A stretch of DNA of 64,000 nt. It comes from Plantactinospora endophytica (GTDB taxonomy: Bacteria > Actinomycetota > Actinomycetes > Mycobacteriales > Micromonosporaceae). Each line of letters begins with the position of its first letter. The first letter of the stretch is position 1. The position numbers and the translations under genes were made by a program. Location of the stretch: positions 1-64,000 of the forward strand of contig NZ_BONW01000038.1 of NCBI RefSeq assembly GCF_016862915.1, given 5' to 3'. Under the pieces are notes generated by a model. The model was not told where the DNA came from. It saw only the letters and a program-made list of their open reading frames with translations, and made no database searches. This document shows, piece by piece, positions 8,172-23,944 of this stretch.

Positions 8172-9539
8172 ATGACCAGCCCGGTGGACGTACGGGACAG
8201 TTATCCACTCTCGCCGGTCCAGCGCGGCATCCTCCGTCGGGCGGCCGGCGAGACGGATCCGGCGACCGACCTCGAACAGGTCCGGCTCGTCATCCGTGGC
8301 CGGCTGCGGGTCGCCGAGTTCCAGCAGTCCTGGCACCGGGTGATCGCCCGGCACGAGGTGCTGCGCAGCGGGTTCGTCCGCGACGATGCCGACGCCGCCG
8401 CCCAGGTGGCCACGGTGGAGACGCCGCCGCCCAGGTGGCACCTTGACGACCTGCGGACGATCCGGGCCTGCCAGCGTCGCCGGGGCCTCGCCGAGTTCCT
8501 CGTCGCCGACCGGTCCCAGGGTTTCACTCTGGACGCTCCGCCGCTGTCCCGGTTCGCCCTGCTGCGGGTCTCCGAGACCGAACACCTGCTGGTGTGGACG
8601 GCGCACCACCTGGTCGTCGACGGCTGGAGCCTGCCGATCCTGCTCCGCGAGGTGTTGGCGGAATACCGGGCGGCGCTCGAAGGCCGGGATGCCGCACTGC
8701 CGACGCCGATGCCGTTCCGCGACCACGTCGCCTGGTCCGCCGCGCACGACCTCGCCGAGGCGGAGGAGTTCTGGCGTGCCGAGCTGTCCGGTCGACCGGT
8801 GCCGAGGCCGTTGCAGAGCGACCCGCCGGACTGGAGCGGCGACCCAGCCGACGCGTACGGCGAGGACTCGCTCGAACTGACCAGCGACGACACCTACCTG
8901 CTGCAGGAGACCGCCGGCCAGCAGCGGATCACGCTCAACACCGCGATCCAGGGCTGCTGGGCCCGGCTGCTCTCGGTCCGGGACGGCGTCGACGACGTCG
9001 TCATCGGCTCGACCGTCGCCGGCCGGGGAGCCGGCCCGGCGGCGACCGAGACCCTGGTCGGGCCGCTGGTCAACACCCTGCCGCTTCGGGTACGCATCCG
9101 TCCCGACCAGCCGGTCGGGGTGTGGTTACGGGGGTTGCAGGCCCGGCAGTCGCTGACCCGCCCGTTCGACCACGTGCCGCCGGCACTGCTCCGGAGCTGG
9201 GCCGGGCCACCCGCCGGGGTGCCGCTGTACGAGAGCGTGCTCGACTTCGAGACCTATCCGATGGACAACGACCTGTTCACCGGCACGGCCGACGCGTCGA
9301 CCCTCTCGGTACGCTTCGACGGTCGGTGGGCAGCGTCGCGGCACCCGTTCACCCTGCTCGTCGTACCGGGCGACCGGCTCGGGTTGCATGCCAGGTACGA
9401 CCGCCGCCGGCTCGGACCGGAGACCGTCGTACACCTGCTCGGTGACCTCGCGCTCCTGTTGAGCCTGGTCGCCACGGATCCGGACCGCCCGGTCTCGGCC
9501 CTCGTCCCGCCCGACGACGAGCCGTACCCGGCCGGCTGA
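8172..9539 (+). CDS. Free-standing NRPS condensation-domain protein
   Basis: A 455-residue protein consisting of one complete condensation domain. The motifs occur in order: YPLSPVQRGIL (C1), RHEVLRSGF (C2), the catalytic HHLVVDG at 145-151 (C3), FRDHVAWS (C4), VGPLVNTLPLR (C5), PFDHVP (C6) and PLYESVLDFE (C7). The acceptor His and the structural Asp are intact, so activity is expected. No adenylation or carrier domain is fused, and no other NRPS gene lies in the window. The start is ATG 8172, with GGAGG at 8160-8164. Stand-alone C proteins are known to form amide or ester bonds between carrier-bound acyl or aminoacyl groups and free acceptors. Its partners must be encoded elsewhere. Confidence 0.92.
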   Translation: MTSPVDVRDSYPLSPVQRGILRRAAGETDPATDLEQVRLVIRGRLRVAEFQQSWHRVIARHEVLRSGFVRDDADAAAQVATVETPPPRWHLDDLRTIRACQRRRGLAEFLVADRSQGFTLDAPPLSRFALLRVSETEHLLVWTAHHLVVDGWSLPILLREVLAEYRAALEGRDAALPTPMPFRDHVAWSAAHDLAEAEEFWRAELSGRPVPRPLQSDPPDWSGDPADAYGEDSLELTSDDTYLLQETAGQQRITLNTAIQGCWARLLSVRDGVDDVVIGSTVAGRGAGPAATETLVGPLVNTLPLRVRIRPDQPVGVWLRGLQARQSLTRPFDHVPPALLRSWAGPPAGVPLYESVLDFETYPMDNDLFTGTADASTLSVRFDGRWAASRHPFTLLVVPGDRLGLHARYDRRRLGPETVVHLLGDLALLLSLVATDPDRPVSALVPPDDEPYPAG

Positions 9540-9734: not shown

Positions 9735-10355
9735 TCAGCGCAGTCCGGCGGCGAATCGGGCCCGGACCGCCGGGGACGCCTTCGCCGGGGAGCCGGCGTC
9801 GAACGGCGGCTGCGGGTCGTACTCGATGGCGAGCTGGATCGCCTCGGCGGTGGTCGGGTCGGCGACCTGGGCGGCGAGGGTGAGCGCCATGTCGATCCCG
9901 GCCGAGACTCCGGCGGCGGTGACCAGTTTTCCGTCGGTGACCACCCGGTGTGCGGTGTAGGTGGCGCCGAAGGACTCCAGCATCTCGGTGCGCCGCCAGT
10001 GCGTGGTGGCGGTCCGCCCGTGCAGCAGTCCGGCGGCGCCGAGCAGCAGGGATCCGGTGCAGACCGAGGTGGTCCACCGGGTGTGCTGGTGCATCCGGCG
10101 GATCCAGTCCAGCAGCGGCCCGCCCGCCAGGTAGGCGTCGACGGCGCCACCGGGCACCATCAGCACGTCACAGGAGTCGATCTCGTCCAAGGCGGCGTCG
10201 GCGGTGAGGGCCAGGCTGCCGACGTTGTTGCGGACCGGACCGGTACGGGTCGCCGCGAACACCACCTCGGCACCGGGCAGCAGTTTCAGGACGTCGTACG
10301 GGCCGACCGCGTCGAGCGCGGTGAACCGGTCGAAGAGCGGGATGACGATCCGCAT
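9735..10355 (-). CDS. DJ-1/PfpI family protein (isonitrile hydratase-like)
   Basis: A 206-residue single-domain glutamine-amidotransferase-fold protein. It has the DVLMVPGG strand, the nucleophile elbow SVCTGS with the conserved Cys, and the AATTHW-like segment TATTHWRRTE that is usual in the InhA/GlxA subgroup. No AraC domain is attached. It follows the GlxA-type regulator with a 10-base gap on the same strand, so they are probably co-transcribed. Relatives include isonitrile hydratase and other small-molecule hydratases or glyoxalase-like proteins. The exact reaction is not resolved by sequence. Confidence 0.88.
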   Translation of the reverse strand: MRIVIPLFDRFTALDAVGPYDVLKLLPGAEVVFAATRTGPVRNNVGSLALTADAALDEIDSCDVLMVPGGAVDAYLAGGPLLDWIRRMHQHTRWTTSVCTGSLLLGAAGLLHGRTATTHWRRTEMLESFGATYTAHRVVTDGKLVTAAGVSAGIDMALTLAAQVADPTTAEAIQLAIEYDPQPPFDAGSPAKASPAVRARFAAGLR

Positions 10356-10365
10356 GGTGTTCCTC

Positions 10366-11316
10366 TCAGCCGAAGTGGTGGCGGTACTGGCCGGGGGTGA
10401 CCCCGATCGTGCGTCGGAAGCAGCGGTGCATCGTCTCGACCGTGCCGAATCCGCAGTTCCGGGCGACGGGGCCGAGTGGGGTGTCGGTGGTCTCCAGCAG
10501 CCGTCGGGCGGCTTCGATCCGGACCGACTCGACGTACGCGGCGGGGGTCTGTCCGGTCTGCGCGTGGAAGACCCGGGCGAAGTGCCGCTCGCTCATTCCG
10601 ACCCGGGCGGCGAGGGCCGGCACGCTCAGGTCGTCGGCGAGGTGCTCGGCCAGCCACGCCTGGAGCTGGCGCAGCCCGGGTCGAGCCGGCCGCTGCGCGG
10701 CGAGTTGGGTGCTGAACTGGGCCTGGCCGCCGGGCCGCTGGACGAACATGACGAGTTGTCGGGCGATGGTCCGGGACAGTTCGCCGCCCTGGTCCTGTTC
10801 CACCAGGGCGAGTGCGAGATCCATCCCGGCGGTGACTCCGGCCGAGGTCCAGACGTCGCCGTCGCGGACGAAGATCGGATCCGGTTCGACCGTCACCGTC
10901 GGATACCGGCGGGCGAGTTCGGCGCAGCTCCCCCAGTGCGTGACCGCCCGCCGGCCGTCGAGTAGTCCCGCCTCGGCCAGCAGGAACGCTCCGCCGCACA
11001 CCCCGGCGACCCGCCGCGCCCGGCTGGCGGCGCCGGCCAGCCAGCCGATCAGCCGCCGGTCGTCGCACGCCTCGGCGCGGCCCCGGCCGCCGGCCACCAC
11101 CAGGGTGTCGATCGGTCCGACGCAGTCGTCGACGCCGAGGTCGGCGGTGACGGTCAGGCCGCCGCTGGCGGTGACCGGTCCGGGCAGTGGTGCGACCGTC
11201 TCCAGCCGGTAGCCCGCCGCCAGCCGCTCGGCCTGCGCGAACACCTCGTGCGGGCCGGTCAGGTCGAGCACCTGGAACCTCGGGAAGATCACGAAAACGA
11301 TCCGGCGTACGTCCAC
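10366..11316 (-). CDS. GlxA-type transcriptional regulator (DJ-1 domain plus AraC HTH)
   Basis: A 316-residue regulator. Residues about 5-185 form a DJ-1/PfpI-like sensor domain (VVAGGRG strand, VCGGAFLLAEAG elbow with Cys). Residues about 215-310 form two AraC/XylS helix-turn-helices (VPALAARVGMSERHFARVF and a second around GPVARNCGFGTVETMHRCF). The start is GTG at 11316. The downstream DJ-1 gene appears to be its operon partner. GlxA-like regulators in actinomycetes control catabolic and developmental genes in response to small ligands. The ligand here is unknown. Confidence 0.93.
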   Translation of the reverse strand: MDVRRIVFVIFPRFQVLDLTGPHEVFAQAERLAAGYRLETVAPLPGPVTASGGLTVTADLGVDDCVGPIDTLVVAGGRGRAEACDDRRLIGWLAGAASRARRVAGVCGGAFLLAEAGLLDGRRAVTHWGSCAELARRYPTVTVEPDPIFVRDGDVWTSAGVTAGMDLALALVEQDQGGELSRTIARQLVMFVQRPGGQAQFSTQLAAQRPARPGLRQLQAWLAEHLADDLSVPALAARVGMSERHFARVFHAQTGQTPAAYVESVRIEAARRLLETTDTPLGPVARNCGFGTVETMHRCFRRTIGVTPGQYRHHFG

Positions 11317-11568
11317 CCGGCCATCGTTTCCGGCACCGGAGCTGGCAGCAATGACAGGTCACTGACGATTTCCGCCATCGCCGCAGTCGACCGGGCGGGC
11401 CGCAGGCACCGGTGGACGACGCCGACGCCGAGTTCGAGTGCGGGACCAGTCCGGTCGGACCCGCCCTCCGGACCCGCCGACCTCGGTCCCGCACCGGTCC
11501 CATCATGTGGCGCCGAGCCGAGGCAGGGGCTGGACGAACGGCTTTGCCCGACACCCCTTTCCGGCAGT

Positions 11569-11580
11569 GGTCAGACCTCC
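11569..11580. promoter_or_regulatory. Upstream copy of the GGTCAGACC motif
   Basis: GGTCAGACCTCC here repeats exactly at 11776-11787. Its core GGTC-A-GACC is a short inverted repeat. GntR regulators of the HutC/DasR group bind GGTC/GACC-type palindromes, and a GntR/UTRA gene ends the operon downstream. Assignment as an auxiliary operator is inferred. Confidence 0.45.
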
Positions 11581-11772: not shown

Positions 11773-11787
11773 GGAGGTCAGACCTCC
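11773..11787. promoter_or_regulatory. GGAGGTCAGACCTCC palindrome, candidate GntR operator
   Basis: Seven-base arms GGAGGTC and GACCTCC surround a central A, 38 bases before the first start codon of the peptide operon. The position suits a repressor site downstream of or overlapping the promoter. The regulator is proposed to be the GntR protein at 22010-22738. Confidence 0.6.
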
Positions 11788-11825: not shown

Positions 11826-13028
11826 GTGCAGGAACGTGCTTCCCGCTATGCGGGATACCGGTCGTTCGACTATCTGACCCCGCAGGTCGACTTCAAGGTG
11901 TTCGACCTGGCCCCACAACTCGGTCGGGTGCCCGCCCACGATCTCGGCCTGACCGACGACCAATCCGACCGGGTCTCCCGGCTGCTGCGCGAGCACACCG
12001 CGATCTCGCTGCACGAACACCCCAAGATCCTGCCGGCCGACGTGACCCAGCTACGGGACTACAACCGGACCGGACGCAACTCCTTCGGGTTCGAGGGCCT
12101 GGCCCGGTCCGGGATGACCGCGGTGTTCGACAACTTCATGAACGGCACCGGCTGCGTGACCAGCGAGCACGCCTGGAAGTGGGACGACGTCATCTACGAC
12201 ATCGGCCTGCGCTTCGCCGACATCGCCAAGCAGGACTACGTGGTCGTGGCGACCACCCTGGAAGAAATCTTCACCGCCAAGCGCAACGGCCAGCTCGCCC
12301 TGGTGGCCGGGCTGGAGGCGGCCACGATGATCGAGAACGAGCTGGACCGGATCGACATCCTGTACGGCTTCGGCGTACGCCAGATGGGCATCGCGTACAG
12401 CCAGGCGAACATGCTCGGCTCGGGGCTCTCCGAGGACCGGGACGGCGGGCTGACCCACTTCGGTCGGCGCGCGGTCGACCGGATGAACAGGCTCGGCATC
12501 GCCATCGACGTGTCGCACTCCGGCGACCAGACCTCGCTGGACGTGATCGAGGCGAGCCGAGTGCCGGTCTTCGTCACCCACGCCGGAGCCCGCGCGGTCT
12601 GGAACACCCCCCGAATGAAGCCGGACGACGTGATCCGGGCCTGCGCCGAGCGGGGCGGGGTGATCGGCATCGAGGCCGCCCCGCACACCACGCTCTCGCA
12701 GGCGCACCCGCACCACTCGATCGAGTCGGTGATGGACCACTTCGTCTACTGCGTCGACCTGGTCGGCATCGACCACGTGGCGTTCGGCCCGGACACCAAC
12801 TTCGGTGACCACGTCGGACTGCACGACAGTTTCACCGGCCACCTGGCGATCGGCAAGGCGCACGGCGCCGTCGACCACCCCCGGGTGCCGTACGTCTCCG
12901 GCCTGGAGAACCCGGCGGAGTGCTTCAGCAACATCGTCGGCTGGCTGGTCACGCACGGCTACTCCGACGACGAGATCGCCAAGGTCATCGGCGGCAACAT
13001 CATTCGCGTTCTTCGGGAGGTTTGGTGA
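11826..13028 (+). CDS. M19-family (renal-type) dipeptidase, copy 1
   Basis: A 400-residue cytoplasmic TIM-barrel metallohydrolase of the membrane dipeptidase family; no signal peptide is seen. Metal-ligand regions: HEH at 63-65, Glu164 (VAGLEA), His231 (DVSHSG), His252 (VTHAGAR) and Asp323 (FGPD). Classical members have HxD at the first site, and here it is HxH. M19 enzymes cleave dipeptides, often with a D-residue at the C-terminus. The start is GTG 11826 with GAGGTGA eight bases upstream. Its stop overlaps the lipoprotein start (GTGA), so it is the first gene of the transporter operon. A close paralogue lies at 20666-21868. The physiological substrate is not known. Confidence 0.92.
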   Translation: MQERASRYAGYRSFDYLTPQVDFKVFDLAPQLGRVPAHDLGLTDDQSDRVSRLLREHTAISLHEHPKILPADVTQLRDYNRTGRNSFGFEGLARSGMTAVFDNFMNGTGCVTSEHAWKWDDVIYDIGLRFADIAKQDYVVVATTLEEIFTAKRNGQLALVAGLEAATMIENELDRIDILYGFGVRQMGIAYSQANMLGSGLSEDRDGGLTHFGRRAVDRMNRLGIAIDVSHSGDQTSLDVIEASRVPVFVTHAGARAVWNTPRMKPDDVIRACAERGGVIGIEAAPHTTLSQAHPHHSIESVMDHFVYCVDLVGIDHVAFGPDTNFGDHVGLHDSFTGHLAIGKAHGAVDHPRVPYVSGLENPAECFSNIVGWLVTHGYSDDEIAKVIGGNIIRVLREVW

Positions 13029-14662
13029 GCAGGACATTTTCCGGCCGTACCCGCCGGTGGCGGGTTGCCGTCGCGCTCGGCGCGGCAGCCGCGCTCGGCC
13101 TGTCCGGGTGCGGACTCAACGAGGGGAACTCGTCGTCCGGTGAGGGTTCCGGCGGCGACGCGGTGCTGCGGGTCGGCACCACCACCGACGTGTCGAACTT
13201 CAACCCGCTCCAGTCGCTGAGCAAGACCGACTCCTGGATCCTCAACGCGATGTACCCGCACCTGCTGCGGATCGACGAGAACGCCAAGAAGGCGCCGGAG
13301 CTGGCGAAGGAATACACCTACACCGACGGCGGCAAGACGGCGGTCTTCACGCTGCGCGACGACTTCACCTGGACCGACGGCAAGCCGGTGGTGGCCGAGG
13401 ACGTCAAGTTCAGCGCCGAGTCGATCATGAAGTACAAGCTGGGCAACGTGGCGGCCAAGCTGACCTGGGTCACCTCGATCGAGGCACCGGACGCGACCAC
13501 CGTGAAGTTCCACCTCTCCCAGCCGTACGCACCGTTCGCCGAGGGCGTCGGGTTCTGGATGTCGATCGTGCCGAAGCACATCTTCGAGGGCGCCGGTGAC
13601 CTGTCGAAGTTCGCCAACGACTCGAACTGGGTCGGCGCCGGGCCGTTCGTGCTGGAGAGCGCGACCAAGGGCCAGCGGTACGTGATGAAGCGCAACGACA
13701 GGTACCCGCTGGCGCCCGGCGGCAAGCCGGCGGTCGGCAAGGTCGAGTTCCGGCTCTACCCGGACGTCAACACGATGATGCTGGCGCTGCGCAACGGCGA
13801 CATCGACCTGATGGGCACCCCGGTACCGGCGTCGGCGGCGAAGACCTTCGCGAACGACTCGAAGATCAAGCTGGCCAAGGTCGGCGCGCTCGGCTTCGCC
13901 CACCTGACCTACAACATGAACAACAAGGACCTGGCCAGGCAGGAGGTCCGGCAGGCGCTGTCGATGGCGGTGGACACCAAGTCGATCATCTCGTCGGTAC
14001 TCCAGGGCGACGCCCGGGAGATGTCCGGGCCGATCTCGCCGATCTTCGCCGACTACGACAACACCGAGATCCAGCCGTACCCGTTCGACCCGGCCGGGGC
14101 GAAGGCCAAGCTGGCGGCGGCGGGCTACAAGGACGGAGACGGTGACGGCCTCTTCGACGGCCTCGACCTCGGCGTCGCCTGCGACCAGTCGAACGCCAAC
14201 ATCACCCGGGTGGTGCAGCTCTTCCGGGAGAGCGCCGCGAAGGCCGGCATCAAGCTGACCAACGAGTGCGTGGAGCGGAACACCTTCCTGTCCCGCACCA
14301 AGGACGGCGAGTACGACATCGACGCGTCGCAGTGGGGCGTCTTCGACAACCCGATGGACCAGCTCCGCAGCACCTACCTCTCCAGCAACCCGGGCGGGAT
14401 CAACTACAACCTGCTCAAGTCGCCGGAGATCGACCGGTTGATCGACGATGCGGCCGGCACCACCGACCCGGCGGCGTTCGCCACGAAGATCAAGAACATC
14501 GACAAGGTGGTGCACGAGCAGGCGTACCTGACGCCGCTCTACGTGGAGAACTTCCAGTTCGCCTACAACGCCAGCAAGTTCACCGGCTTCGTGGCCTCGC
14601 CGTCCGACCTGCTCGGCATGGTCACCGCGTACTCGCTGGCCCAGGTCAAGCCGGTCGGCTGA
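13025..14662 (+). CDS. Peptide/opine-type ABC transporter substrate-binding lipoprotein
   Basis: A 545-residue SBP_bac_5 (OppA/DppA-like) protein. The n-region is Arg-rich, and the lipobox LSGC places the lipidated Cys at residue 29, so it is anchored outside the membrane. Family signatures include LAKEYTYTDGGKTAVFTLRD, FHLSQPYAPF and the QEVRQALSMAVD block. The start at GTG 13025 overlaps the dipeptidase stop and has GGGAGG at 13015-13020. A longer upstream reading of the same frame would run through the dipeptidase gene and is not needed. It should capture the compound that the M19, M24 and S33 enzymes process. Confidence 0.94.
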   Translation: MSRTFSGRTRRWRVAVALGAAAALGLSGCGLNEGNSSSGEGSGGDAVLRVGTTTDVSNFNPLQSLSKTDSWILNAMYPHLLRIDENAKKAPELAKEYTYTDGGKTAVFTLRDDFTWTDGKPVVAEDVKFSAESIMKYKLGNVAAKLTWVTSIEAPDATTVKFHLSQPYAPFAEGVGFWMSIVPKHIFEGAGDLSKFANDSNWVGAGPFVLESATKGQRYVMKRNDRYPLAPGGKPAVGKVEFRLYPDVNTMMLALRNGDIDLMGTPVPASAAKTFANDSKIKLAKVGALGFAHLTYNMNNKDLARQEVRQALSMAVDTKSIISSVLQGDAREMSGPISPIFADYDNTEIQPYPFDPAGAKAKLAAAGYKDGDGDGLFDGLDLGVACDQSNANITRVVQLFRESAAKAGIKLTNECVERNTFLSRTKDGEYDIDASQWGVFDNPMDQLRSTYLSSNPGGINYNLLKSPEIDRLIDDAAGTTDPAAFATKIKNIDKVVHEQAYLTPLYVENFQFAYNASKFTGFVASPSDLLGMVTAYSLAQVKPVG

Positions 14663-14697
14663 CCGGCGCGACGACGTAGAAGGGAGGGGTCCCCCAC

Positions 14698-15651
14698 GTG
14701 GCACGCTTCGTGCTCAACCGGGCGCTGAAGGCCGTACTGACCGTCTGGATAGCGATCACCGCGACGTTCTTCCTGCTCCGGTTGCTGCCGGGGGACCCCA
14801 CGACCCTGATGGTCGAGGGGGACATGACGCCGGAGATGCGGGCGGCGCTGCTCAAGACGTACGGGCTGGACCGGCCGCTGCTGGAACAGTACGTGTCGTA
14901 CCTGCGCGAACTGCTGCACGGCAACTTCGGCATCTCGTTCCGGCAGATCCAGCCGGTCAGCGACATCCTGCTCGACCGGCTGCCCTGGACCCTGCTGCTG
15001 GCCGGGGTGGCGTTCCTGCTCACCATCGCCGTCGGCATCCCGATCGGGGTGTACGCGGCGGCACACCGGGGCCGCTGGCCCGACCGGCTGCTCCAGGGCT
15101 TCGGCATCGCCGGGCACGCGCTCTTCGTGCCCAGCGTGGCGATGCTGCTGCTGGTCTGGCTCGGCGCCCGGCTCGGCTGGTTCCCGATCGGCGGGGCGAT
15201 CGACCCGGACACCCGGGGCCTCGCCGCCTACCTGAGCCTGGCACACCACCTGGTGCTGCCGGTCGCCTCGCTGGTGCTGGTGCAACTCGGCCCGTACGCG
15301 CTGACCCTGCGGACCAACCTGATCGACGTCCTCGGCGAGGACTACATCCGGGCGGCCCGGGCGCGGGGCCTGTCCGGGCGGCGTCGACTGTGGAAACACG
15401 GCCTGCGCAACGCCATCCTGCCGGCGCTGACCCTGATGGGGCTGCAACTCGGCACCCTGGTCGGCGGCGCCGTACTCACCGAGACCGTCTTCGCCTATCC
15501 CGGCGTCGGCCGGCTGATCTACGAGGCGGTCGGGCAACGCGACTATCCCGTCCTGCAAGGAGCGTTCATCATGCTCGCCATCACCGTGGTGGTCGCCAAC
15601 GCGCTTACCGACCTGCTCTACGCGGTCCTCAACCCGAGGATCCGACTGTGA
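14698..15651 (+). CDS. Dpp/Opp-type ABC permease, DppB subunit
   Basis: A 317-residue inner-membrane permease with six predicted helices, the N-terminal conserved RLLPGDPTTLMVEGDMT region and the EAA loop (DYIRAARARGLSGRRRLWKH) that docks the ATPase. The start is GTG 14698, 35 bases after the lipoprotein, with GGGAGG upstream. It pairs with the permease at 15710. Length and motif order match DppB/OppB. Confidence 0.95.
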   Translation: MARFVLNRALKAVLTVWIAITATFFLLRLLPGDPTTLMVEGDMTPEMRAALLKTYGLDRPLLEQYVSYLRELLHGNFGISFRQIQPVSDILLDRLPWTLLLAGVAFLLTIAVGIPIGVYAAAHRGRWPDRLLQGFGIAGHALFVPSVAMLLLVWLGARLGWFPIGGAIDPDTRGLAAYLSLAHHLVLPVASLVLVQLGPYALTLRTNLIDVLGEDYIRAARARGLSGRRRLWKHGLRNAILPALTLMGLQLGTLVGGAVLTETVFAYPGVGRLIYEAVGQRDYPVLQGAFIMLAITVVVANALTDLLYAVLNPRIRL

Positions 15652-15709
15652 GCGCGGGCAGCGGGCCGGGCCGCCGTGCTCCGTCGTCGCGCCCGGAAGG
15701 GCAACCGCG

Positions 15710-16606
15710 ATGAGCGCGCCGCTGGTGACCGAGGCGGAGGCGGCGGCGACCGCTCCGGCGACGGAGCCGGCCGTCGGCACCCGGTCGGCGTGGCGGACGT
15801 TCTTCCGGCAGCCGTCCGGGCTGCTCGCGGCGGCGGTGCTGGTGGTGATGGTACTGCTGGCGGTCTTCGCGCCGCTGATCGCCGACGAGCCGGGCGGTAC
15901 CAGCCCGGACGTGCTCCGGTCCCCGTCCGGCGGGCATCTGTTCGGCACCGACGACCTCGGACAGGACATCTTCGCCCAGGTGGTCTGGGGGACCAGGACC
16001 AGCCTGCTGATCGGGGTGGCGGCCTCGCTGATCGCCATCGTGCTGGGTACGGCGATCGGGCTCGCGTCGGCGTACTTCCGCCGGGTGGACGCGGTCGGCA
16101 CGGTGGTCACCGACGTGATGCTGGCGCTGCCCACCCTGCCCCTGATGATCATGCTGGCCGCGATCGTGAACCCGAGCGTCTGGACGCTGACCGTGATCAT
16201 CGGCGTCTTCGCCTGGCCCGAGGTGGCCCGGCTGATCCGGTCGCAGGGGCTGGTGGTCAGCGCGATGCCGTACATCGACGGGGCCCGGGTGCTCGGCGCC
16301 AGCGGATGGCGGATCGTCACCCGGGAGATCCTGCCGGCGGTGGTACCGCTGATCGTGGTCAGCGTGCTGCTCACCGCGTCCCGGGCGGTCATCTCCGAGG
16401 CCGGGCTGAGCTTCCTCGGCCTCGGTGACCCGGACGCCTGGTCGTGGGGGCGGATCCTGCTCAACGCCCAGCGCAGCGGGGTGGTCGCCATCGCCTGGTG
16501 GCAGACCCTCTTCCCGTCGCTGGCCATCCTGCTGCTGGTGCTCGCCGCGACGGTCGCCGGTATGCGGTTCAACGACATCCGAGACCCCCGCCGGAACGGA
16601 GGCTGA
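15710..16606 (+). CDS. Dpp/Opp-type ABC permease, DppC subunit
   Basis: A 298-residue permease with an N-terminal cytoplasmic tail, a first helix at about 40-60, a GTDDLGQDIF motif and an EAA loop (YIDGARVLGASGWRIVTREI). These features identify the DppC/OppC partner. It lies 58 bases after DppB, with its stop three bases before the M24 gene. Together with DppB it forms the channel of the importer. Confidence 0.95.
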   Translation: MSAPLVTEAEAAATAPATEPAVGTRSAWRTFFRQPSGLLAAAVLVVMVLLAVFAPLIADEPGGTSPDVLRSPSGGHLFGTDDLGQDIFAQVVWGTRTSLLIGVAASLIAIVLGTAIGLASAYFRRVDAVGTVVTDVMLALPTLPLMIMLAAIVNPSVWTLTVIIGVFAWPEVARLIRSQGLVVSAMPYIDGARVLGASGWRIVTREILPAVVPLIVVSVLLTASRAVISEAGLSFLGLGDPDAWSWGRILLNAQRSGVVAIAWWQTLFPSLAILLLVLAATVAGMRFNDIRDPRRNGG

Positions 16607-16609
16607 CCC

Positions 16610-17785
16610 ATGCGTCTGCCCGACAGTTTCTACTCGTCCGTCCGGGCCCGGCTGGCCGACGCGCTCGACGTACGCGGCCTCGACGGGTTCCTGGCCACCT
16701 CCCCCGCCGACGTGGCGTTCCTGAGCGGGTTCTTCTACATCGCCACCGAGCGGCCGGTCTATCTCTGGATGCCCCGGGAGGGCGATCCGCTGCTGGTCAT
16801 CCCCCGCCTCGACGAGGAGTACGCCGCCCAGCAGGGCATCACCGTCGAGACGGTCAGCTACTTCGAGTTCCCCGGCGTGGTCAGCGCCGAGCAGACCCTC
16901 GGCGCGGCGCTGGCCGGCCGGAAGGCGAAGCAGATCGGGGTGGGCGCGGGGTTGTCGATCGGGGCGTACCGGGCGCTGTCCCGGGCGCTCGGCGGCAGCA
17001 CCCTGGTCACCACCGACGCGGTGGCGAAGCTGCGGCTGCGCAAGTTTCCCGAGGAGATCCCGTGCCACGAGGCGGCGGCGCGGATCTGCGACGAGATGCT
17101 CGGCGCCGGCCGGGAACTGATCGCCGAGGCGCTGCGCCGGGGCACCGAACTCCCCCGCGAGGACGAGATCGCCCGGCACGTCATCGGGTACGGCACCGAC
17201 CGGATGTACGCCGACTACGACCTGGTCGTCTACACCACCAAACTGGCCGGCGGGCTGGTCTACGCCGGCCCGAACTCGGCGCTGCCGCACGGCCTGCCGA
17301 CCCGGCGCCGGATCCAGCCCGGCGACACCCTGATCCTCTCCCTCGGCGCGGCGGTGGCCAGCCGGTTCGTGGAGAGCGAACGCACCTTCGTGGTCGGCGA
17401 GCCGACACGTGAGCAGCGGCGCTACTACGAGGCGGACCGGGAGGCGCAGGAGGTCGGTACCCAGGCGATGCGGGCCGGCCGGACCTGCGCCGAGGTGAAC
17501 CGGATCTGCCTCGACGTGCTGCGCGGGCACGGCCTGGGTGACTACATCCGGCACCGGCAGGGGCACGGCATCGGGTTGCAGAACCACGAGGCGCCCTGGG
17601 TCGAGGACGGCGACGACACCGTGCTGGAGCCCGGAATGCTGCTCTCCAGCGAGCCCGGCGTCTACGTACCCGGGCACGCCGGCTACCGGATCTCCGACAC
17701 CGTACTGGTCGAGGAGGCCGGGCCGCGCCGGCTGACCGGCTATCCGCGCGATCTCGCGTCCAACATCATCGAGGAGGTCAGATGA
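16610..17785 (+). CDS. M24 pita-bread-fold hydrolase lacking canonical metal ligands
   Basis: A 391-residue protein with the N-terminal creatinase domain (about 10-150) and the C-terminal pita-bread domain (about 155-390) of Xaa-Pro peptidases. Of the five usual dimetal ligands, only His319 (RQGHGIG) and Glu348 (SSEPGVY) are as expected. The first Asp is Ser244 (LSLGA), the second is Glu255 (VESERT) and the final Glu is Ser362 (RISD). Creatinase and ectoine hydrolase are known metal-free M24 members that cleave C-N bonds using the conserved His. This protein may therefore be an amidohydrolase rather than an aminopeptidase. It overlaps the next gene by four bases (ATGA). Confidence 0.88.
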   Translation: MRLPDSFYSSVRARLADALDVRGLDGFLATSPADVAFLSGFFYIATERPVYLWMPREGDPLLVIPRLDEEYAAQQGITVETVSYFEFPGVVSAEQTLGAALAGRKAKQIGVGAGLSIGAYRALSRALGGSTLVTTDAVAKLRLRKFPEEIPCHEAAARICDEMLGAGRELIAEALRRGTELPREDEIARHVIGYGTDRMYADYDLVVYTTKLAGGLVYAGPNSALPHGLPTRRRIQPGDTLILSLGAAVASRFVESERTFVVGEPTREQRRYYEADREAQEVGTQAMRAGRTCAEVNRICLDVLRGHGLGDYIRHRQGHGIGLQNHEAPWVEDGDDTVLEPGMLLSSEPGVYVPGHAGYRISDTVLVEEAGPRRLTGYPRDLASNIIEEVR

Positions 17786-18651
17786 CCGTCGACAGTTCGC
17801 CCGGTTTCGCGGGCCGGCTGACGATCAACGGCGCCGAGCTGGTCGTCGAGGCGTACGGCCCCGAGGACGCACCGGCCGTGATCGTGCACCACGGCGCACC
17901 GGGGCTGGGCTCCCGCGCCGAGCCGAAGAGGTCGTTCGGGCCGTTCGCCGACCAGTACCGGGTGATCGTCTTCGACGCCCGGGGCTCCGGCGAGTCCAGT
18001 GACGACGAGCCGTTCACCCACGAGCAGTGGGTCGCCGACGTCGACGCGATCCGGGAGTACTTCGGCTACGAGAAGATCGTGATGGCCGGCGGCTCGTACG
18101 GCGGCTTCATCTCGCTGGAATACGCCGTCGCGCATCCGGACCGGGTCGCCGCACTGGTGCTGCGGGACACCGCCGCCGACAACGGGCACAACGAACTCGC
18201 GGTCGAGAAGGCGAAGAACACCGACCGGACCATGATCCCGCAGTGGGCGATCGACCGGATCGGCACCGGACACTTCGAGAGCAACGAGCAGCTCCGGGAG
18301 TACTGGAAGGCGATCCTGCCGCTCTACGACCACCAGCACGACCCGGCGAAGGACGCCGCGAAGCTGGCCGCCACCCGGTTCCACTACCGGACCCACAACG
18401 CCGCCTTCGGGCAGAACATGCCGCGCTACGACCTGAAGCCGCAGCTTCCCTCGATCACCTGCCCGACCCTGGTCACCGTCGGCCGGCACGACTGGCGTAC
18501 CCCGGTCGCCGCCTCACAGGTGATCGCCGACCTGATCCCGGACGCCCGGCTGGTGGTCTTCGAGCACTCCGGGCACTCGCCGCAACTGGAGGAGCCGGAG
18601 CTGTTCCAGCGCACGGTGCGGGACTTCCTCGACTCGGCCGGGATCCGGTAA
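17782..18651 (+). CDS. Alpha/beta hydrolase, proline iminopeptidase-like (S33)
   Basis: A 289-residue hydrolase. The oxyanion motif is HHGAPG, the nucleophile elbow GGSYGG has Ser105, and the acid and base are Asp237 (GRHDW) and His265 (HSGHS). The cap region between about 135 and 215 is helical, as in proline iminopeptidases. There is no signal peptide. The start overlaps the M24 stop and the stop shares one base with the ATPase start, so expression is tightly coupled. It probably removes an N-terminal residue from, or opens an amide in, the imported compound. A lactonase or esterase cannot be excluded. Confidence 0.88.
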   Translation: MTVDSSPGFAGRLTINGAELVVEAYGPEDAPAVIVHHGAPGLGSRAEPKRSFGPFADQYRVIVFDARGSGESSDDEPFTHEQWVADVDAIREYFGYEKIVMAGGSYGGFISLEYAVAHPDRVAALVLRDTAADNGHNELAVEKAKNTDRTMIPQWAIDRIGTGHFESNEQLREYWKAILPLYDHQHDPAKDAAKLAATRFHYRTHNAAFGQNMPRYDLKPQLPSITCPTLVTVGRHDWRTPVAASQVIADLIPDARLVVFEHSGHSPQLEEPELFQRTVRDFLDSAGIR

Positions 18652-19649
18652 TGGCCCTGCTGGAGGTCGAGGACCTGCGGGTCAGCTTCCCCGTTCCCGG
18701 GTCCGGTGGCGACGCGACCAGCTCGGTGCACGCGGTCAACGGGGTGTCACTGGCGCTGGAGTCCGGCCGGACGCTGGCGATCCTCGGCGAATCCGGCTCC
18801 GGCAAGAGCGTCACCGCGCAGGCGGTGATGGGAATTCTCGACGAGCCACCGGCCCGGGTCGCCGGCTCTGTCCGGCTGCGCGGCCGGGAGCTGCTGACCC
18901 TGACCCCGAAACAGCGGGACCGGGTCAGCGGCGAGGAGATCGGCATGGTCTTCCAGGACGCGATGGCCGCGCTCAACCCGGTCTACACGGTCGGCGAGCA
19001 GCTCGGCGAGCTGCTCCGGGTCCGCCGGGGACTGTCCCGGTCCGCCGCCCGGCGCCGGGCCGTCGAGCTGGTCGACCGGGTGCACATCCCGGCCGCGAAG
19101 GACCGGGTACGCGACTATCCGCACCAGTTCTCCGGCGGAATGCGGCAGCGCATCATGATCGCGCTGGCGATCGCGCTGGAGCCGGACGTGCTGATCGCCG
19201 ACGAGCCGACCACGGCGCTGGACGTGACCGTGCAGGCGCAGGTGATGGAGCTGATCGCGGAGATCCAGCGGGACAGCGGGATGGCACTGCTGCTGATCAC
19301 CCACGACCTGGGCGTGGTCGCCGAGGTCGCCGACGACGTGGCGGTGATGTACGCCGGCCGGATCGTCGAGCGGGCCACCGTGCAGCAGGTCTTCGCCGGC
19401 CCGGCGCATCCGTACACCGAGGGGCTGCTCGCCTCGATGCCCCGGATCGACCGCCGCGACGAGGAGCTGTACGCCATCCCCGGTGCCCCGCCGAACCCGG
19501 CCCGGCTGCCCGCCGGCTGCCCGTTCCACCTGCGCTGCCCGCGCGCCGACGACGTCTGCCGGGCCACGCTGCCGGTGCTGGAGCCGCTGCCCGACGGCCG
19601 CGCCAGCGCCTGCCACCACCGGAAGGAGTTGCTGCATGTCGGTGGATGA
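18651..19649 (+). CDS. Dpp/Opp-type ABC ATPase, DppD subunit
   Basis: A 332-residue ATPase. Walker A is GESGSGKS, the signature is FSGGMRQR, Walker B is [12 protein letters not shown] and the switch is ITHDLGVV. The C-terminal oligopeptide-transporter extension has the Cys cluster ([14 protein letters not shown]) that often binds an iron-sulfur cluster in this family. The start ATG shares a base with the previous stop (TAATG). A longer reading upstream in the same frame overlaps the hydrolase gene and is rejected. Confidence 0.95.
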
Positions 19650-20628
19650 CGAACTCGTGCTGCGGGTCGACGACCTGGTCCGGCACTTTCCGGTGAAGGG
19701 GCGGCTGCCGTTCACCTCCGGCGGAGTGGTCAAGGCCGTCGACGGGGTCTCCTTCGACCTGCGCCGGGGCGAGACGCTCGGCATCGTCGGCGAGTCCGGC
19801 TGTGGCAAGAGCACCCTGGCCCGGATGCTGGTCGGGCTGGAACGGCCGACATCCGGTGAGGTGCGGTTCGGCGATGCCGTGGTGCACGCCGCCCGGGGAC
19901 GGAACCTGCGGGCGCTGCGCCGACGGATCCAGATCGTGCTCCAGGACCCGTACACCTCGCTGAACCCGCGCCGGACGGTACGGGAGATCCTGCTCCAGCC
20001 GTTCGAGATCCATCCCGACGTGCTGGACCGGGGACGGCGACTGGACCGGGTGAAGGAGCTGCTCGACCTGGTCGGGTTGGACGGCAGCCTGCACCTGGAC
20101 CGCTATCCGCACCAGTTCTCCGGCGGGCAGCGGCAGCGGATCGGCATCGCCCGGGCGCTGGCCCTGCAACCCGACGTGATCGTCTGCGACGAGCCGGTCT
20201 CCGCGCTCGACGTCTCCGTCCAGGCCCAGGTCGTCAACCTGCTGGAACGGCTCCAGCGGGAACTCGGGGTGGCGTACGTCTTCATCGCCCACGACCTGTC
20301 GGTGGTCCGGCACATCTCGGACCGGGTCGCGGTGATGTACCTCGGCAAGCTGGTGGAGCGCGGCCCCGAACGGCTGCTGTACGACGCGCCGGCCCACCCG
20401 TACACCAAGGCGCTGCTGTCGGCGGTGCCGGTCCCCGAACCGGTCGGCCGGGCGCAGCGGAAGCGAATCCTCCTCGCCGGTGATCCGCCCAGCCCGGTCG
20501 ACCCACCCTCCGGCTGCCGGTTCCGGACCCGCTGCTGGCAGGCGACCGAAACCTGTGCCATCACCGAACCCGTACTGGCCGGCGGCGACCGCGCGGTCGC
20601 CTGCCACTACCCGCTGGCCGCCGCCTAG
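19636..20628 (+). CDS. Dpp/Opp-type ABC ATPase, DppF subunit
   Basis: A 330-residue ATPase. Walker A is GESGCGKST, the signature is FSGGQRQR, Walker B is [12 protein letters not shown] and the switch is IAHDLSVV. The C-terminal DppF tail contains Cys residues ([14 protein letters not shown]). The start at ATG 19636 has GGAAGGAG eight bases upstream and lies 14 bases inside the DppD gene. With DppD it forms the heterodimeric motor of the importer. Confidence 0.95.
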
Positions 20629-20665
20629 CCGCTCGCGCGACCCGTCCCGTCGTAAGGAGAAAGTC

Positions 20666-21868
20666 TTGCTGCAAGAACCCGCTTCCCGGTACCAGGGCCA
20701 CAAGTCCTACTCGTACCTGGAGCCACACGCCGACTACCGGGTCTTCGAGCTGGCCCCGGAGATCGGTCGGGTACCCGAGCACGACCTCGGGCTCTCCGAC
20801 CCGCAGCGGCAGCGGGTGACCCGCCTGCTGGCCGAGCACATCGCGATCTCCCTGCACGAGCACCCGGTGATCCTGCCGGCGGACGTCACCGAGCTGCGTG
20901 CCTACAACCGGACCGCCCGGCAGCGGACCGGCTTCGAAGGGCTGGCCCGGTCCGGCCTGACCGCCGTCTTCGACAACTTCATGGCCGGCGCCTCCTGCGT
21001 CACCAGCGAGAACGGCTGGAAGTGGAACGACCTCGTCTACGCCCTCGGGATGCGGATGAGCGACATCTACCAACAGGACTACGTCACGCTGGCGACCTCG
21101 CTCGACGACATCCGGGCGGCGAAGCGGGACGGCCGGCTGGCCCTGGTCGCCGGGCTGGAGTGCAGCAGCCCGATCGAGAACGAACTCGACCGGATCGACA
21201 TCCTGTACGGCTTCGGCGTACGCCAGCTCGGCATCGCGTACAGCCAGGCGAACATGCTCGGCGGTGGGCTGTCGGAGGCCCGGGACGGTGGGTTGACGCA
21301 CTTCGGCCGGCGCGCGGTCGACCGGATGAACAAGCTCGGCATCGCCATCGACATCTCGCACTCCGGCGACCAGACCTGCCTGGACACCATCGAGGCGAGC
21401 CGGGTACCGGTCTTCGTCACCCACGCCGGGGCGCGCTCGGTCTGGAACACCTCGCGGATGAAGCCGGACGAGGTGATCCGGGCCTGCGCCGAGCGGGGTG
21501 GGGTGATCGGCATCGAGGCGGCTCCGCACACCACCCTCTCCGAGGCGCATCCGGAGCACTCGCTGGACTCGGTGATGGACCACTTCACCTACTGCGTCGA
21601 CCTGGTCGGGATCGACCACGTGACGTTCGGCCCGGACACGATGTTCGGCGACCACGTCGGGGTGCACAAGACGTACGCCGGCAACTACGGGCACGACTCG
21701 GGCAACAAGCCGGCGCACCCCCGGGTCGAGTACGTCTCCGGGGTGGAGAATCCCGGCGAGGCGTTCGGCAACATCGTCGGCTGGCTGGTCAAGCACGACT
21801 ACTCGGACGACGAGATCGCCAAGGTGATCGGCGGCAACACCATCCGGGTACTCGAACAGGTCTGGTGA
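20666..21868 (+). CDS. M19-family (renal-type) dipeptidase, copy 2
   Basis: A 400-residue paralogue of the protein at 11826-13028, nearly collinear and mostly identical. It has the same HEH first metal site, VAGLE, DISHSG, VTHAGAR and FGPD motifs. The copies differ most near the C-terminal third (NYGHDSGNKPAHP here) and around the first 40 residues, which could tune specificity. The start is taken as TTG 20666 because AGGAGA lies at 20655-20660 and the N-terminus then aligns with copy 1. Two enzymes of this type in one operon suggest either two substrates or two steps on related dipeptides. Confidence 0.92.
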   Translation: MLQEPASRYQGHKSYSYLEPHADYRVFELAPEIGRVPEHDLGLSDPQRQRVTRLLAEHIAISLHEHPVILPADVTELRAYNRTARQRTGFEGLARSGLTAVFDNFMAGASCVTSENGWKWNDLVYALGMRMSDIYQQDYVTLATSLDDIRAAKRDGRLALVAGLECSSPIENELDRIDILYGFGVRQLGIAYSQANMLGGGLSEARDGGLTHFGRRAVDRMNKLGIAIDISHSGDQTCLDTIEASRVPVFVTHAGARSVWNTSRMKPDEVIRACAERGGVIGIEAAPHTTLSEAHPEHSLDSVMDHFTYCVDLVGIDHVTFGPDTMFGDHVGVHKTYAGNYGHDSGNKPAHPRVEYVSGVENPGEAFGNIVGWLVKHDYSDDEIAKVIGGNTIRVLEQVW

Positions 21869-21951
21869 CGACGTGCGGTGGTCGGGCATCGGGGTGCGCG
21901 GCGGCGGGTGGTGCAGCGGCGCACCCACGCGGACGTCGATCGGCCGGGTGC

Positions 21952-21982
21952 CCAGCTACTACACTCCGTACGCCGTAGCTGG
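21952..21982. promoter_or_regulatory. Inverted repeat before the GntR gene
   Basis: CCAGCTAC (21952-21959) and GTAGCTGG (21975-21982) are exact reverse complements separated by 15 bases. The site lies 28 bases before the GntR start. It may be the regulator's own operator or an RNA hairpin between the operon and the regulator. It does not resemble the GGTCAGACC motif upstream of the operon. Confidence 0.55.
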
Positions 21983-22009
21983 CGCGGCGGAGCGAAGAGG
22001 TGAGGGTTG

Positions 22010-22738
22010 ATGGCTCGGCGCGAGACCGCGCTTCAGACCGCGCAGGGTCAACTGCGCGATCTGATCGGCAGCGAGTTCCGGACCGGTGACAAGCTGCCCA
22101 ACGAGCGCGAGTTGGCCGACCGGCTGGCGGTCAGCCGCGCCACCGTACGGGAGGTGCTGGGGCAGCTCGCCGCCGAAGGCGTACTGACCCGGACCTGGGG
22201 GGTGGGCACGTTCGTCAGCGAGCCGGCCGAGCGGGTACCGGTGTCGATCGGCGACGTCACCGCGCTGCGGGACCGGATCACCGCCTCCGGGCACCGGCCG
22301 GCGCTCCAGGACGCGTCGGTGAGCCGGGCCGAGTGCCCGGACGACTGCGCCAAGATCCTCGGACTGGACGTGGGTTCGCCCGTCTGGCGGGTCGACCGGC
22401 TCTTCGCCGTCGACGGCGTGGCGGCGGCCTGGATCCGGGACCACCTGCCGCTGCGGGTCGGCGAGCGTGAACTCGACCCGTCCGGCCTGGTCAGCATCGA
22501 CCTCGACATGTTCGAGTTCCTGGCCGGCGCCACCGGGATGCCGGTACGCCGGGCCGAGATCGAGTTCGCGGCGGTACTCGCCGACGAGGCGGCGGTCGAC
22601 CGGCTCGCGGTGCCGCTCGGGCATCCACTGGTCAGCGCGACCCAGATCGGCTACAACGCCGAGGGGCTGGCCCTGTTCCACGGGCACATCACGGTCCGGA
22701 CCGACGTGTTGACCCTGCGGATCACCCGGGGCGCCTGA
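22010..22738 (+). CDS. GntR-family regulator with UTRA ligand domain
   Basis: A 242-residue regulator. The N-terminal winged helix spans about 5-75 (LPNERELADRLAVSRATVREVLGQLA in pieces, then GVGTFVSEP). The C-terminal UTRA domain (about 85-240) contains VWRVDRLFAVDG and ends in ITVRTDVLTLRITRG. This is the HutC/DasR subgroup, whose members usually repress catabolic operons until they bind a substrate-derived ligand. It lies 141 bases after the second dipeptidase on the same strand. ATG 22010 is chosen over the adjacent TTG 22007; GAGGTGAGG lies just upstream. The peptide operon is the most likely target. Confidence 0.93.
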   Translation: MARRETALQTAQGQLRDLIGSEFRTGDKLPNERELADRLAVSRATVREVLGQLAAEGVLTRTWGVGTFVSEPAERVPVSIGDVTALRDRITASGHRPALQDASVSRAECPDDCAKILGLDVGSPVWRVDRLFAVDGVAAAWIRDHLPLRVGERELDPSGLVSIDLDMFEFLAGATGMPVRRAEIEFAAVLADEAAVDRLAVPLGHPLVSATQIGYNAEGLALFHGHITVRTDVLTLRITRGA

Positions 22739-22759
22739 GCCGGCTCCAGACCTGCCCCG

Positions 22760-22850
22760 CCGCACGCGGTGGGCTCTTTTGCCGCACAGCGATGGGCTCC
22801 CCCGCCACACCGCAGTGGGCTCCCCCGCCGCACAGGCGTGGGCTCCGGCG
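22760..22850. repeat. Four-copy 22-23 bp imperfect tandem repeat
   Basis: Units at 22760-22781, 22782-22804, 22805-22827 and 22828-22850 follow the pattern CCGCACAGCG-TGGGCTCCCCCG with small differences. They fill the gap after the GntR gene. No dyad or protein-like frame is evident. Confidence 0.75.
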
Positions 22851-22957
22851 CCGGGTCCGGGTCGGATGGCTCCTGGCCGGGATGGCGGGATTTGGTCTAC
22901 GGTCGACGGCCTGACCTGCTGCCCCGAGGGGACAGCGTCCCTACCCGGGGAGTTCTC

Positions 22958-23944
22958 ATGGCGACCGCGTTGCGTGACCTGCTGGACGAGACGATCCAGG
23001 CGGGAAAGCTGGACGGCCTGCACGCGGCGGTGGCGGTCCGGGCCGGCGAGACGATCCTGGAGTACTACGGCACGGGCGAGGACGCGAGCTGGGGCACCTC
23101 GCTGGGCGTCGTCGAGTTCGGTCCCGGGACGCTGCACGACCTTCGCTCGGTCAGCAAGAGCGTGACCGCGCTGGTCTACGGGATCGCCCTCGGCGAGGGT
23201 CTGGTTCCCGGCCCCGACGCGCCGCTGCTGCGGCAGTTCCCGGAGTACCCCGACCTGGCGGCCGATCCCGGGCGGGCCCGGCTCACCGTCGAGCACGTAC
23301 TGACGATGTCGCTCGGCCTGGAATGGCGCGAGGACGTCCCGTACGACAGTCCGGCCAACGACGAGATCGCCATGGAGTTGGCCCCGGACCGGTACCGCTA
23401 CGTGCTGGAGCGCCCGACCGTCGAGCCTCCCGGCACCCGCTGGACGTACTGCGGCGGCGCCTCGGCGCTGCTCGGTCGGCTGATCGCCGACGGCACCGGA
23501 AAACCCCTTCCGGAGTACGCCCGAACGGCGCTCTTCGCACCGCTGGACATCGACCACTTTGGGTGGATGGCCGGCTCGGACGGGGTGGCGTCACCCGCGT
23601 CCGGCCTGCGACTCACGCCACGCGACCTGGCCAGGATCGGCGAGCTGGTGCTCGGTGAGGGCGCGTGGAACGGCGGTCAGGTCGTCCCCGCCGACTGGAT
23701 CCGGACGATGCTCCGGCCCCGCCTCCGGACGACCTGGGGTGCCGAGTACGGCTACCACTGGTACCTCGACACCGTCGGCGGGCGTCGACTGGTGAGCGCG
23801 ATCGGCAACGGCGGCCAACGCCTGGTCGTCGTACCCGAACTGGACCTCGCCGTGGCGATCGCCGCCGGCAACTACGACGACCCGGAGCAGTGGCGGACAC
23901 CGGTCACGCTGCTGGAGCGGGTCGTCCTGCCCGGCGTGGGGTGA
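22958..23944 (+). CDS. Serine hydrolase of the beta-lactamase (class C-like) family
   Basis: A 328-residue protein with the SxxK motif SVSK (Ser64, Lys67) in DLRSVSKSVTAL, and the ELD/Y region WTYCGGASALLGRLI in place of the usual YxN. A GNGGQ segment stands where KTG/HxG is expected. There is no signal peptide when the start is ATG 22958; an upstream in-frame reading is compositionally unlike protein. Such proteins include esterases, D-amino-acid peptidases and cephalosporinases. It stands alone after the GntR gene and is not clearly part of the peptide operon. Confidence 0.88.
   Translation: MATALRDLLDETIQAGKLDGLHAAVAVRAGETILEYYGTGEDASWGTSLGVVEFGPGTLHDLRSVSKSVTALVYGIALGEGLVPGPDAPLLRQFPEYPDLAADPGRARLTVEHVLTMSLGLEWREDVPYDSPANDEIAMELAPDRYRYVLERPTVEPPGTRWTYCGGASALLGRLIADGTGKPLPEYARTALFAPLDIDHFGWMAGSDGVASPASGLRLTPRDLARIGELVLGEGAWNGGQVVPADWIRTMLRPRLRTTWGAEYGYHWYLDTVGGRRLVSAIGNGGQRLVVVPELDLAVAIAAGNYDDPEQWRTPVTLLERVVLPGVG

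Follow-up and report, generated by a model that had tools for sequence, protein, structure and literature searches.

A coupled import-and-hydrolysis gene unit of Plantactinospora endophytica with twin M19 hydrolases, a partly creatinase-like M24 protein and a predicted operator

Introduction

Which compound would a bacterium take up and take apart with a whole peptide-type importer, four hydrolases and a regulator encoded side by side? The question is raised by a locus of Plantactinospora endophytica (genome size 9.68 Mb) in a 64,000-nucleotide stretch of contig NZ_BONW01000038.1, which was analysed as a whole and is called the window here. A first-pass annotation described a coupled run of nine genes followed by a GntR/UTRA regulator gene, called their combination unusual and suggested a non-protein peptide or cyclic amide as the substrate. 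The reading we favour, with a probability of roughly 0.55, is that the locus is a regulated catabolic unit for the uptake and hydrolysis of a defined peptide-like compound; its general scheme, an import-and-hydrolysis unit, we hold with good confidence. Gene content, coupling, gene order, enzyme residue signatures, a single duplication and a layout-specific palindrome are legible in the DNA itself and are described first.

Results

Nine coupled genes encode an importer and four hydrolases

All ten genes were found where the first-pass annotation had placed them, and Pfam agreed with every family that it had named. Nine plus-strand genes (11826-21868) run in the order M19a, substrate-binding protein (SBP), permease B, permease C, M24, alpha/beta hydrolase (ABH), ATPase D, ATPase F and M19b, all joined by overlaps or by gaps of at most 58 bp (-4, +35, +58, +3, -4, -1, -14 and +37 bp), and the GntR/UTRA gene follows M19b after a further 141 bp. 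Spacing and families together support the view of one coupled uptake-and-hydrolysis unit. Pfam scores were 227.5 and 214.7 bits for the two M19 proteins (cut-off 26), 271 for SBP_bac_5, 152.7 and 51.3 for M24 and Creatinase_N, 115.4 for Abhydrolase_1, and 66.9 and 58 bits for the GntR helix-turn-helix (HTH) and UTRA domains. The start of M19b is probably the TTG at 20666. A promoter consensus scan found no match.

The SBP is a predicted lipoprotein (lipobox LSGC, residue 26). With SBP_bac_5, BC permeases and DF ATPases that carry oligo_HPY, the importer has the make-up of the Dpp/Opp/App class, which combines one SBP_bac_5 lipoprotein, two permeases and two oligo_HPY ATPases; unlike in that class, its genes are interleaved with those of four hydrolases. 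The best PDB match of the SBP was AppA, with DppA in the top six, and among the models listed no importer subunit reached its NCBIfam cut-off, ATPase F missing PRK11308 by half a bit. When the first 50 residues were scanned crudely for hydropathy, the four hydrolases gave values of 0.02-1.20 against 1.91 for the SBP, and none of them had a signal-like N-terminus, so that hydrolysis likely takes place in the cytoplasm.

The ABH combines a Ser-Asp-His triad with an HGGPG-type motif, as expected of an S33 prolyl iminopeptidase. In an alignment of 70 rows D237 and H265 were invariant (70/70 each), GGSYGG was kept in at least 97%, and within the HGAPG motif the A and P stood in 65 and 68 rows, respectively. 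The subfamily model TIGR01250 gave 109.3 bits, short of its cut-off of 167.65. PcaD-type models score the ABH like proline iminopeptidase models, all below cut-off, so that the models favour no one substrate class.

The gene order recurs in five families

Related loci were collected by a genome scan with M19a, from which the best 80 of 100 confirmed stretches were kept; 72 of the loci are named. The loci were sorted by tblastn with the ten window proteins and then by gene order, and counts were taken from tblastn because our own gene caller misassigned several high-GC genes. The order seen in the window (layout A) was found in 27 of the 72 named loci, of which 26 are complete and one (L046) is cut by a contig end; L086 was counted as complete, its M24 being matched in two tblastn pieces (53 and 74%). 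These loci belong to Micromonosporaceae, Streptosporangiaceae, Cellulomonadaceae, Jiangellaceae and Microbacteriaceae. Plantactinospora supplies the nearest named relative of M19a (97%). Since the order recurs in other families at protein identities of about 58-98% (38-98% for GntR), the ten-gene order is, as judged from this comparison, more than chance, and the conserved synteny outside the strain that the first-pass annotation had proposed to look for was thus found.

Two further layouts were distinguished, namely layout B, with two divergent ATPase genes and one M19 gene (16/72), and layout C, which is without M24 and comes from Bacillota only (10/72); 16 of the 72 loci show other arrangements. 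The window's own genome carries a layout B copy (L111, near C1:608-617 kb, stretch G000:C1:603000-622000), in which tblastn matched one M19 (69%), an SBP (43%), permeases, M24 (55%), ABH (58%) and divergent ATPases. Compostimonas (L081) has the unit without M19a and M24, and in Rugosimonospora the unit is split over two 21-kb stretches, with M19a and ABH on one (L056) and M19b and GntR on the other (L062). The word 'self-contained' used by the first-pass annotation is therefore not universally apt.

Among 200 genomes sampled from the family, 32 gave an M19 match at E <= 1e-40. Twelve, the own genome included, hold both M19 twins on one contig at a distance of 8.7-8.9 kb, and two hold them on different contigs. 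In a phylum sample of 396 genomes, where the four best candidates per genome were scored and tallies may be low, the M24 subfamily (E below 1e-170) was present in at least three genomes and a full-length M19 of the subfamily in at least four; in all three genomes with the M24 subfamily the M24 gene starts 4.7-4.9 kb after the subfamily M19. Beyond Actinomycetota the module is found, in other gene orders, on a plasmid of Deinococcus QL22 (IclR-SBP-B-C-BPL_N-M19-ABH-M24) and in the alphaproteobacterium Terrarubrum (DF/B-C-M24-ABH/ABH-SBP, with no annotated M19 in the stretch seen). On the conjugative plasmid of Paenarthrobacter sp. YJN-5 (L122) a subfamily M19 gene has an Lrp/AsnC gene on one side and an amidohydrolase gene on the other, with a dihydropyrimidinase gene (hydA) nearby.

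The M19 twins descend from one duplication

Both M19 proteins belong to the M19 family by Pfam, and in place of the HxD N-terminal metal motif their subfamily has HxH in all 30 aligned rows. The 19 M19 loci of the phylum sample comprised 12 with HxD, a subfamily member (L191) and L198 with HxH, four with no motif, and L199, which only repeated a shortened L182 gene; these were read by motif pattern, and the alignment did not line up their N-termini. E164, H231, H252, R256 and D323, which we take to be the expected M19 metal and substrate positions, are invariant in the 30-row alignment. The best Foldseek match of the predicted fold was 2i5g (TMq 0.70). The M19 dipeptidases (renal dipeptidase, Sco3058, GliJ; 2i5g) share this fold and the E164, two His, Arg and Asp columns, and differ from the subfamily in having HxD and with respect to the roughly 55 residues that the subfamily has ahead of the motif; judging by an entry title, a structure of a GliJ D38H mutant exists.

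In a maximum-likelihood tree of a chosen subset of 68 rows, the first and second M19 copies of layout A formed two clades (100/98 and 100/99) that were sisters to each other (100/99). On this topology, the twins arose by one duplication that preceded the spread of layout A over five families. Both copies are kept in the sampled loci except L081. Twelve positions separate M19a from M19b at >=95% within each set (28, 27 and 12 rows were compared), and seven of these adjoin Glu164 or follow Asp323, which suggests that the two pockets differ. The clostridial units of Lutispora (L105) and Clostridium (L107) also have tandem M19 genes of the HxH subfamily, from a duplication that is separate in the tree; L105 further codes for an Amidohydro_3 protein, an M28 peptidase and a sigma-54 activator.

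The M24 protein carries a partly creatinase-like residue set

M24 peptidases have a two-metal centre, as set out in excerpts of PMC4404410 and PMC4108388. The first-pass annotation had called the M24 protein of the window poor in metal ligands, and indeed three of the five canonical ligands are replaced, as they are throughout its subfamily, which sets it apart from the M24B prolidases. The subfamily reads H-S-E-E-R-H-E-S where prolidases have H-D-D-T-R-H-E-E. Across 53 aligned rows (M24 matches over <60% of the query were not used, among them the two pieces of L086) the five ligand columns hold S (52/53), E, H, E and S (53/53 each), in place of D, D, H, E and E, which we take to be the canonical ligands. 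All five canonical ligands are kept by three other M24 proteins of the own genome (L036-L038), of which L036 is prolidase-like, and by all 17 canonical relatives (L139-L155), which read D/D/H/E/E with T (15) or S (2) at position 257.

At position 257 the subfamily has a glutamate that prolidases lack and creatinase has. Our reference creatinase, encoded beside a creatininase gene and matching 1chm best in the PDB (682.7 bits), has N/A/H/E/H in the ligand columns and E at 257. H227, E257 and E348 align with His232, Glu262 and Glu358, presumably the catalytic residues of creatinase (chain positions offset by one); as H227 and E348 occur in prolidases too, only E257 is diagnostic. The AlphaFold model (predicted local distance difference test, pLDDT, 91.4) matched creatinases at a Foldseek TMq of 0.87-0.90, against at most 0.83 for prolidases among the 50 matches listed. 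Creatinase thus shares with the M24 protein the loss of canonical metal ligands, Glu 257, His 227, Glu 348 and the best TMq; it differs in overall sequence (21-24% identity), in having Ala where the M24 protein has Glu at ligand 2 and His where it has Ser at ligand 5, and in context, since the ten genes include neither a creatininase nor a sarcosine gene. No creatine or creatinine gene was found among the ten or among 20 Pfam-checked neighbour proteins of related loci. By its alignment columns, then, the M24 protein carries a conserved, partly creatinase-like residue set and has not merely lost ligands.

Ectoine hydrolase (DoeA) was considered and rejected as an identity for the M24 protein, since the protein reached only 49.2 bits on the DoeA model, whose cut-off is 613, and the ligand columns of DoeA differ (E, P, Y, M, T). 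The ectoine utilisation operon (DoeA/EutD) nevertheless resembles the present unit in pairing an M24-fold non-peptidase hydrolase with a second hydrolase (doeA-doeB), and it, too, includes an importer. An M24 protein with N/E/H/E/S and E257 is encoded on an Agrobacterium pusense plasmid (L130, 3944-5104) beside a branched-chain-type ATP-binding cassette (ABC) importer, so that this set of residues is not confined to the present unit. A haloarchaeal plasmid of Natronosalvus rutilus (L134, 4947-7001) encodes an M24 protein with A/E/H/E/S and E257, followed directly by an alpha/beta hydrolase, with ABC permeases further on.

A palindrome upstream of M19a is specific to layout A

A predicted operator lies just upstream of the unit (Table 1). 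Its palindrome core, GAGGTCnGACCTC, has a single occurrence in the entire own genome, as has a reversed control pattern. Within 150 bp upstream of M19a the core was exact in 18/18 Micromonosporaceae loci (L039-L056, among them L046, which is cut, and L056, which is split); before M19a of layout A loci outside this family it was present with at most two mismatches in 10/10 and at most one in 8/10. This 28-locus count does not cover L081 and L062, as both lack M19a. At up to two mismatches the core was absent from all 40 loci of other layouts (25 B, 10 C, 5 other), and about 2% of shuffled layout A upstream regions reached two mismatches. In Rugosimonospora an exact site stands upstream of M19a (L056) and of the separate M19b (L062). 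Among 20 examined genomes the core was found in 13/13 with layout A M19 genes, two of which have a further site elsewhere, and in 1/7 without. By this distribution the palindrome is specific to layout A.

The regulator genes differ between the layouts: layout A has GntR, layout B, in 13 of its 16 named loci, an Lrp/AsnC-type gene (by clustering of open reading frames (ORFs), with Pfam on one cluster member, L074) and layout C an IclR-type gene in 10/10 (likewise by clustering, with Pfam on L100 and, outside C, L089). The GntR protein of the window has the GntR HTH and UTRA domains and falls short of the HutC equivalog cut-off (83.2 vs 220); it is predicted to bind the palindrome at 11774-11786. 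A possible second copy of the operator differs by one mismatch and is unsupported by itself, since the window holds five matches with up to two mismatches, below the chance expectation of 7.85.

Features of the unit and its surroundings

Table 1. Positions of the genes and predicted elements of the unit in the window
Feature	Position	Strand	Basis or remark
Possible second operator copy, GTGGTCAGACCTC	11567..11579		One mismatch
Predicted operator, GAGGTCAGACCTC	11774..11786		Core of 17-bp imperfect palindrome; 39 bp upstream of M19a
M19a, membrane-dipeptidase-family hydrolase, HxH subfamily, copy 1	11826..13028	+	GTG start; Pfam, alignment, tree
SBP, family 5 substrate-binding lipoprotein (AppA/DppA class)	13025..14662	+	Pfam, lipobox
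ABC importer permease B	14698..15651	+	Pfam BPD_transp_1
ABC importer permease C	15710..16606	+	Pfam BPD_transp_1
M24-fold hydrolase, partly creatinase-like residues	16610..17785	+	H227, S244, E255, E257, R258, H319, E348, S362
ABH, S33/prolyl-iminopeptidase-like alpha/beta hydrolase	17782..18651	+	Triad Ser105-Asp237-His265, HGAPG motif
ABC importer ATPase D	18651..19649	+	Pfam ABC_tran + oligo_HPY
ABC importer ATPase F	19636..20628	+	Pfam ABC_tran + oligo_HPY
M19b, second HxH M19 hydrolase	20666..21868	+	TTG start (probable)
GntR/UTRA transcriptional regulator	22010..22738	+	Predicted to bind 11774-11786
Terminator-like stem 3' of GntR	22756..22773	+	2 such sites in the stretch vs 2.7 expected from shuffles

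An inverted repeat without a T run (CCAGCTAC...GTAGCTGG, 21952-21982) lies in the interval between M19b and GntR and is possibly a regulatory element. Divergent from the operon, two neighbouring DJ-1/PfpI genes, one fused to an AraC-type HTH, occupy 9738-11316 on the minus strand. A Pfam Beta-lactamase (serine) domain is present in two ORFs, of which one (22769-23944) comes immediately after GntR and the other lies at 46397-47932. An ORF with a single nonribosomal peptide synthetase (NRPS) condensation domain is found at 8004-9539, and a type I polyketide synthase (PKS) ORF with AT, DH, KR and ACP domains at 60748-63993 on the minus strand; with a carboxyl transferase ORF (57475-58911) the latter possibly forms a biosynthetic cluster at the window edge.

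Discussion

According to the reading that we favour, the lipoprotein and the BC/DF ABC importer would carry a small, defined compound of peptide-like nature into the cytoplasm, where the four hydrolases would take it apart. The S33-like serine hydrolase may free the N-terminal residue, the M24 protein may cut the C-N bond beside an N-substituted nitrogen of the proline or sarcosine type, by a mechanism like that of creatinase and probably independent of metal, and M19a and M19b, differing in specificity, would act on the dipeptide-like products that are left. The GntR/UTRA protein would repress the unit through the palindrome 39 bp before M19a until the substrate or a breakdown product lifts the repression. 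Import, cytoplasmic location, repression, catalytic order and bond type are what we infer from families, residues and gene order. We consider a creatinase-type mechanism of the M24 protein evenly balanced, and a proline- or N-alkyl-type substrate is a tentative suggestion.

Several observations weigh against this reading. Across whole genomes the palindrome pattern is no commoner than the reversed control (present in 16 of those 20), so that the evidence lies in its position and not in its frequency. The core was defined on Micromonosporaceae, leaving only the ten loci of other families as an independent test; related loci are not independent events; and no palindrome stands upstream of M19b in Compostimonas (L081). 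The enzymes can also occur apart: one phylum-sample genome (G374) has an M24 protein (9e-73) with the residue type of the subfamily (G/E/H/E/S, Glu at 257) and no subfamily M19 match among the scored candidates, another (G231) has a subfamily M19 and no subfamily M24 among them, the Bacillota of layout C manage without M24 and Terrarubrum does so without M19 in the stretch seen. For the M24 protein itself, target-normalised TM-scores were 0.85-0.87 for creatinases and up to 0.93 for prolidases, Foldseek E-values and sequence scores place prolidases above creatinase (the top sequence scores being those of the prolidases/Xaa-Pro dipeptidases 1pv9 and 7n02), and the alignment has no counterpart for the arginine that binds the creatine carboxylate in creatinase, which we take to be Arg335. 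Finally, E255, H319 and E348 could still bind one metal.

This last point leads to the strongest alternative, in which the rest of the scheme holds and the M24 protein is a one-metal Xaa-Pro-type peptidase with E255, H319 and E348 as ligands. All three residues are present in 53/53 rows, and creatinase has Ala in the E255 column; however, with two ligands lost the second metal should be gone, and the additional Glu at 257 matches creatinase. We regard a one-metal peptidase as possible but doubtful.

Slightly less well placed is ordinary scavenging, that is, a Dpp/Opp-type importer with peptidases for common L-peptides, including proline-containing ones. Every family in the unit is a peptidase or peptide-importer family, the structural matches of the SBP to AppA and DppA fit such a role, and loci of other layouts carry the general peptidases M20, M28 and DUF885 near M19. 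A narrower substrate is indicated by the two conserved M19 clades, the M24 protein without canonical ligands and the layout-specific palindrome beside the regulator gene. Moreover, the unit is rare in the phylum sample (at least 3-4 of 396 genomes, though 32 of 200 in the family), and the own genome also holds a canonical-ligand prolidase-like M24 (L036). We regard scavenging as rather unlikely.

Use of D-amino-acid dipeptides or peptidoglycan fragments, in which the M19 enzymes would cleave L-Xaa-D-Xaa and the operon would recycle the fragments, is decidedly improbable. The nearest folds of M19 include Sco3058 with, according to its entry title, a phosphinate pseudodipeptide L-Leu-D-Ala. Pathways of this kind typically include an epimerase, a racemase, an LD-carboxypeptidase or a D-amino acid oxidase, none of which was seen among the 20 Pfam-checked neighbours or in the annotated M19/M24 plasmid stretches, and we know of no role for the M24 and S33 families in them. 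Least probable is that the unit serves to detoxify, or to protect the cell itself from, an antibiotic or agrochemical of peptide-like nature, for although the window holds the NRPS and PKS ORFs and the plasmid-borne M19 of Paenarthrobacter YJN-5 has hydantoinase and amidohydrolase genes nearby, the layout occurs in five families and the listed flanking clusters are mostly common to close relatives, which gives no tie to the biosynthetic genes of the window, and an importer fits resistance poorly.

Returning to the imported compound of the favoured reading, the non-protein peptide or cyclic amide first suggested stays a suggestion, no result identifying a substrate, and the accompanying caution that the substrate cannot be deduced from sequence still holds. 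Relatives of the SBP (general peptide, nickel, heme and sugar binders, 'AapF') offered nothing decisive, and a literature search on 'AapF' gave nothing useful. Flanking genes were tried as a second source: the listed flanking ORF clusters are common mostly to close relatives, and among those shared by many unrelated loci only regulators could be named (20 proteins were Pfam-checked, most clusters being unnamed). Some loci of other layouts have M20, M28, DUF885, amidohydrolase, zinc-dehydrogenase and MFS genes nearby. Among the literature matches listed, in a search that lay outside most subscription journals, there was no description of the unit or of a likely substrate.

The combination was rightly called unusual in that the altered M24 and the duplicated M19s are real and conserved; it is recurrent rather than strain-specific, and by the comparisons above both features predate the spread of layout A over five families. 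A bolder view, which we think unlikely, is that the unit represents an undescribed, phylum-crossing pathway that breaks down a natural pseudopeptide of the N-substituted or guanidino/amidine type, with a metal-independent creatinase-class enzyme recruited beside peptidases, duplicated HxH M19s of two fixed specificities and a GntR operator of its own.

The unit is open to direct tests, for its genes are named, its operator is predicted and two of its enzyme subfamilies are altered in their catalytic residues. If the M24 protein does act metal-free on a peptide-like substrate, it would provide a mechanistic link between creatinase and the proline peptidases. Once found, the substrate would point to a nutrient or signal that Micromonosporaceae, Jiangella, Microbacterium and others exploit, and relatives now annotated as 'Xaa-Pro peptidase' or 'membrane dipeptidase' could be named more precisely.

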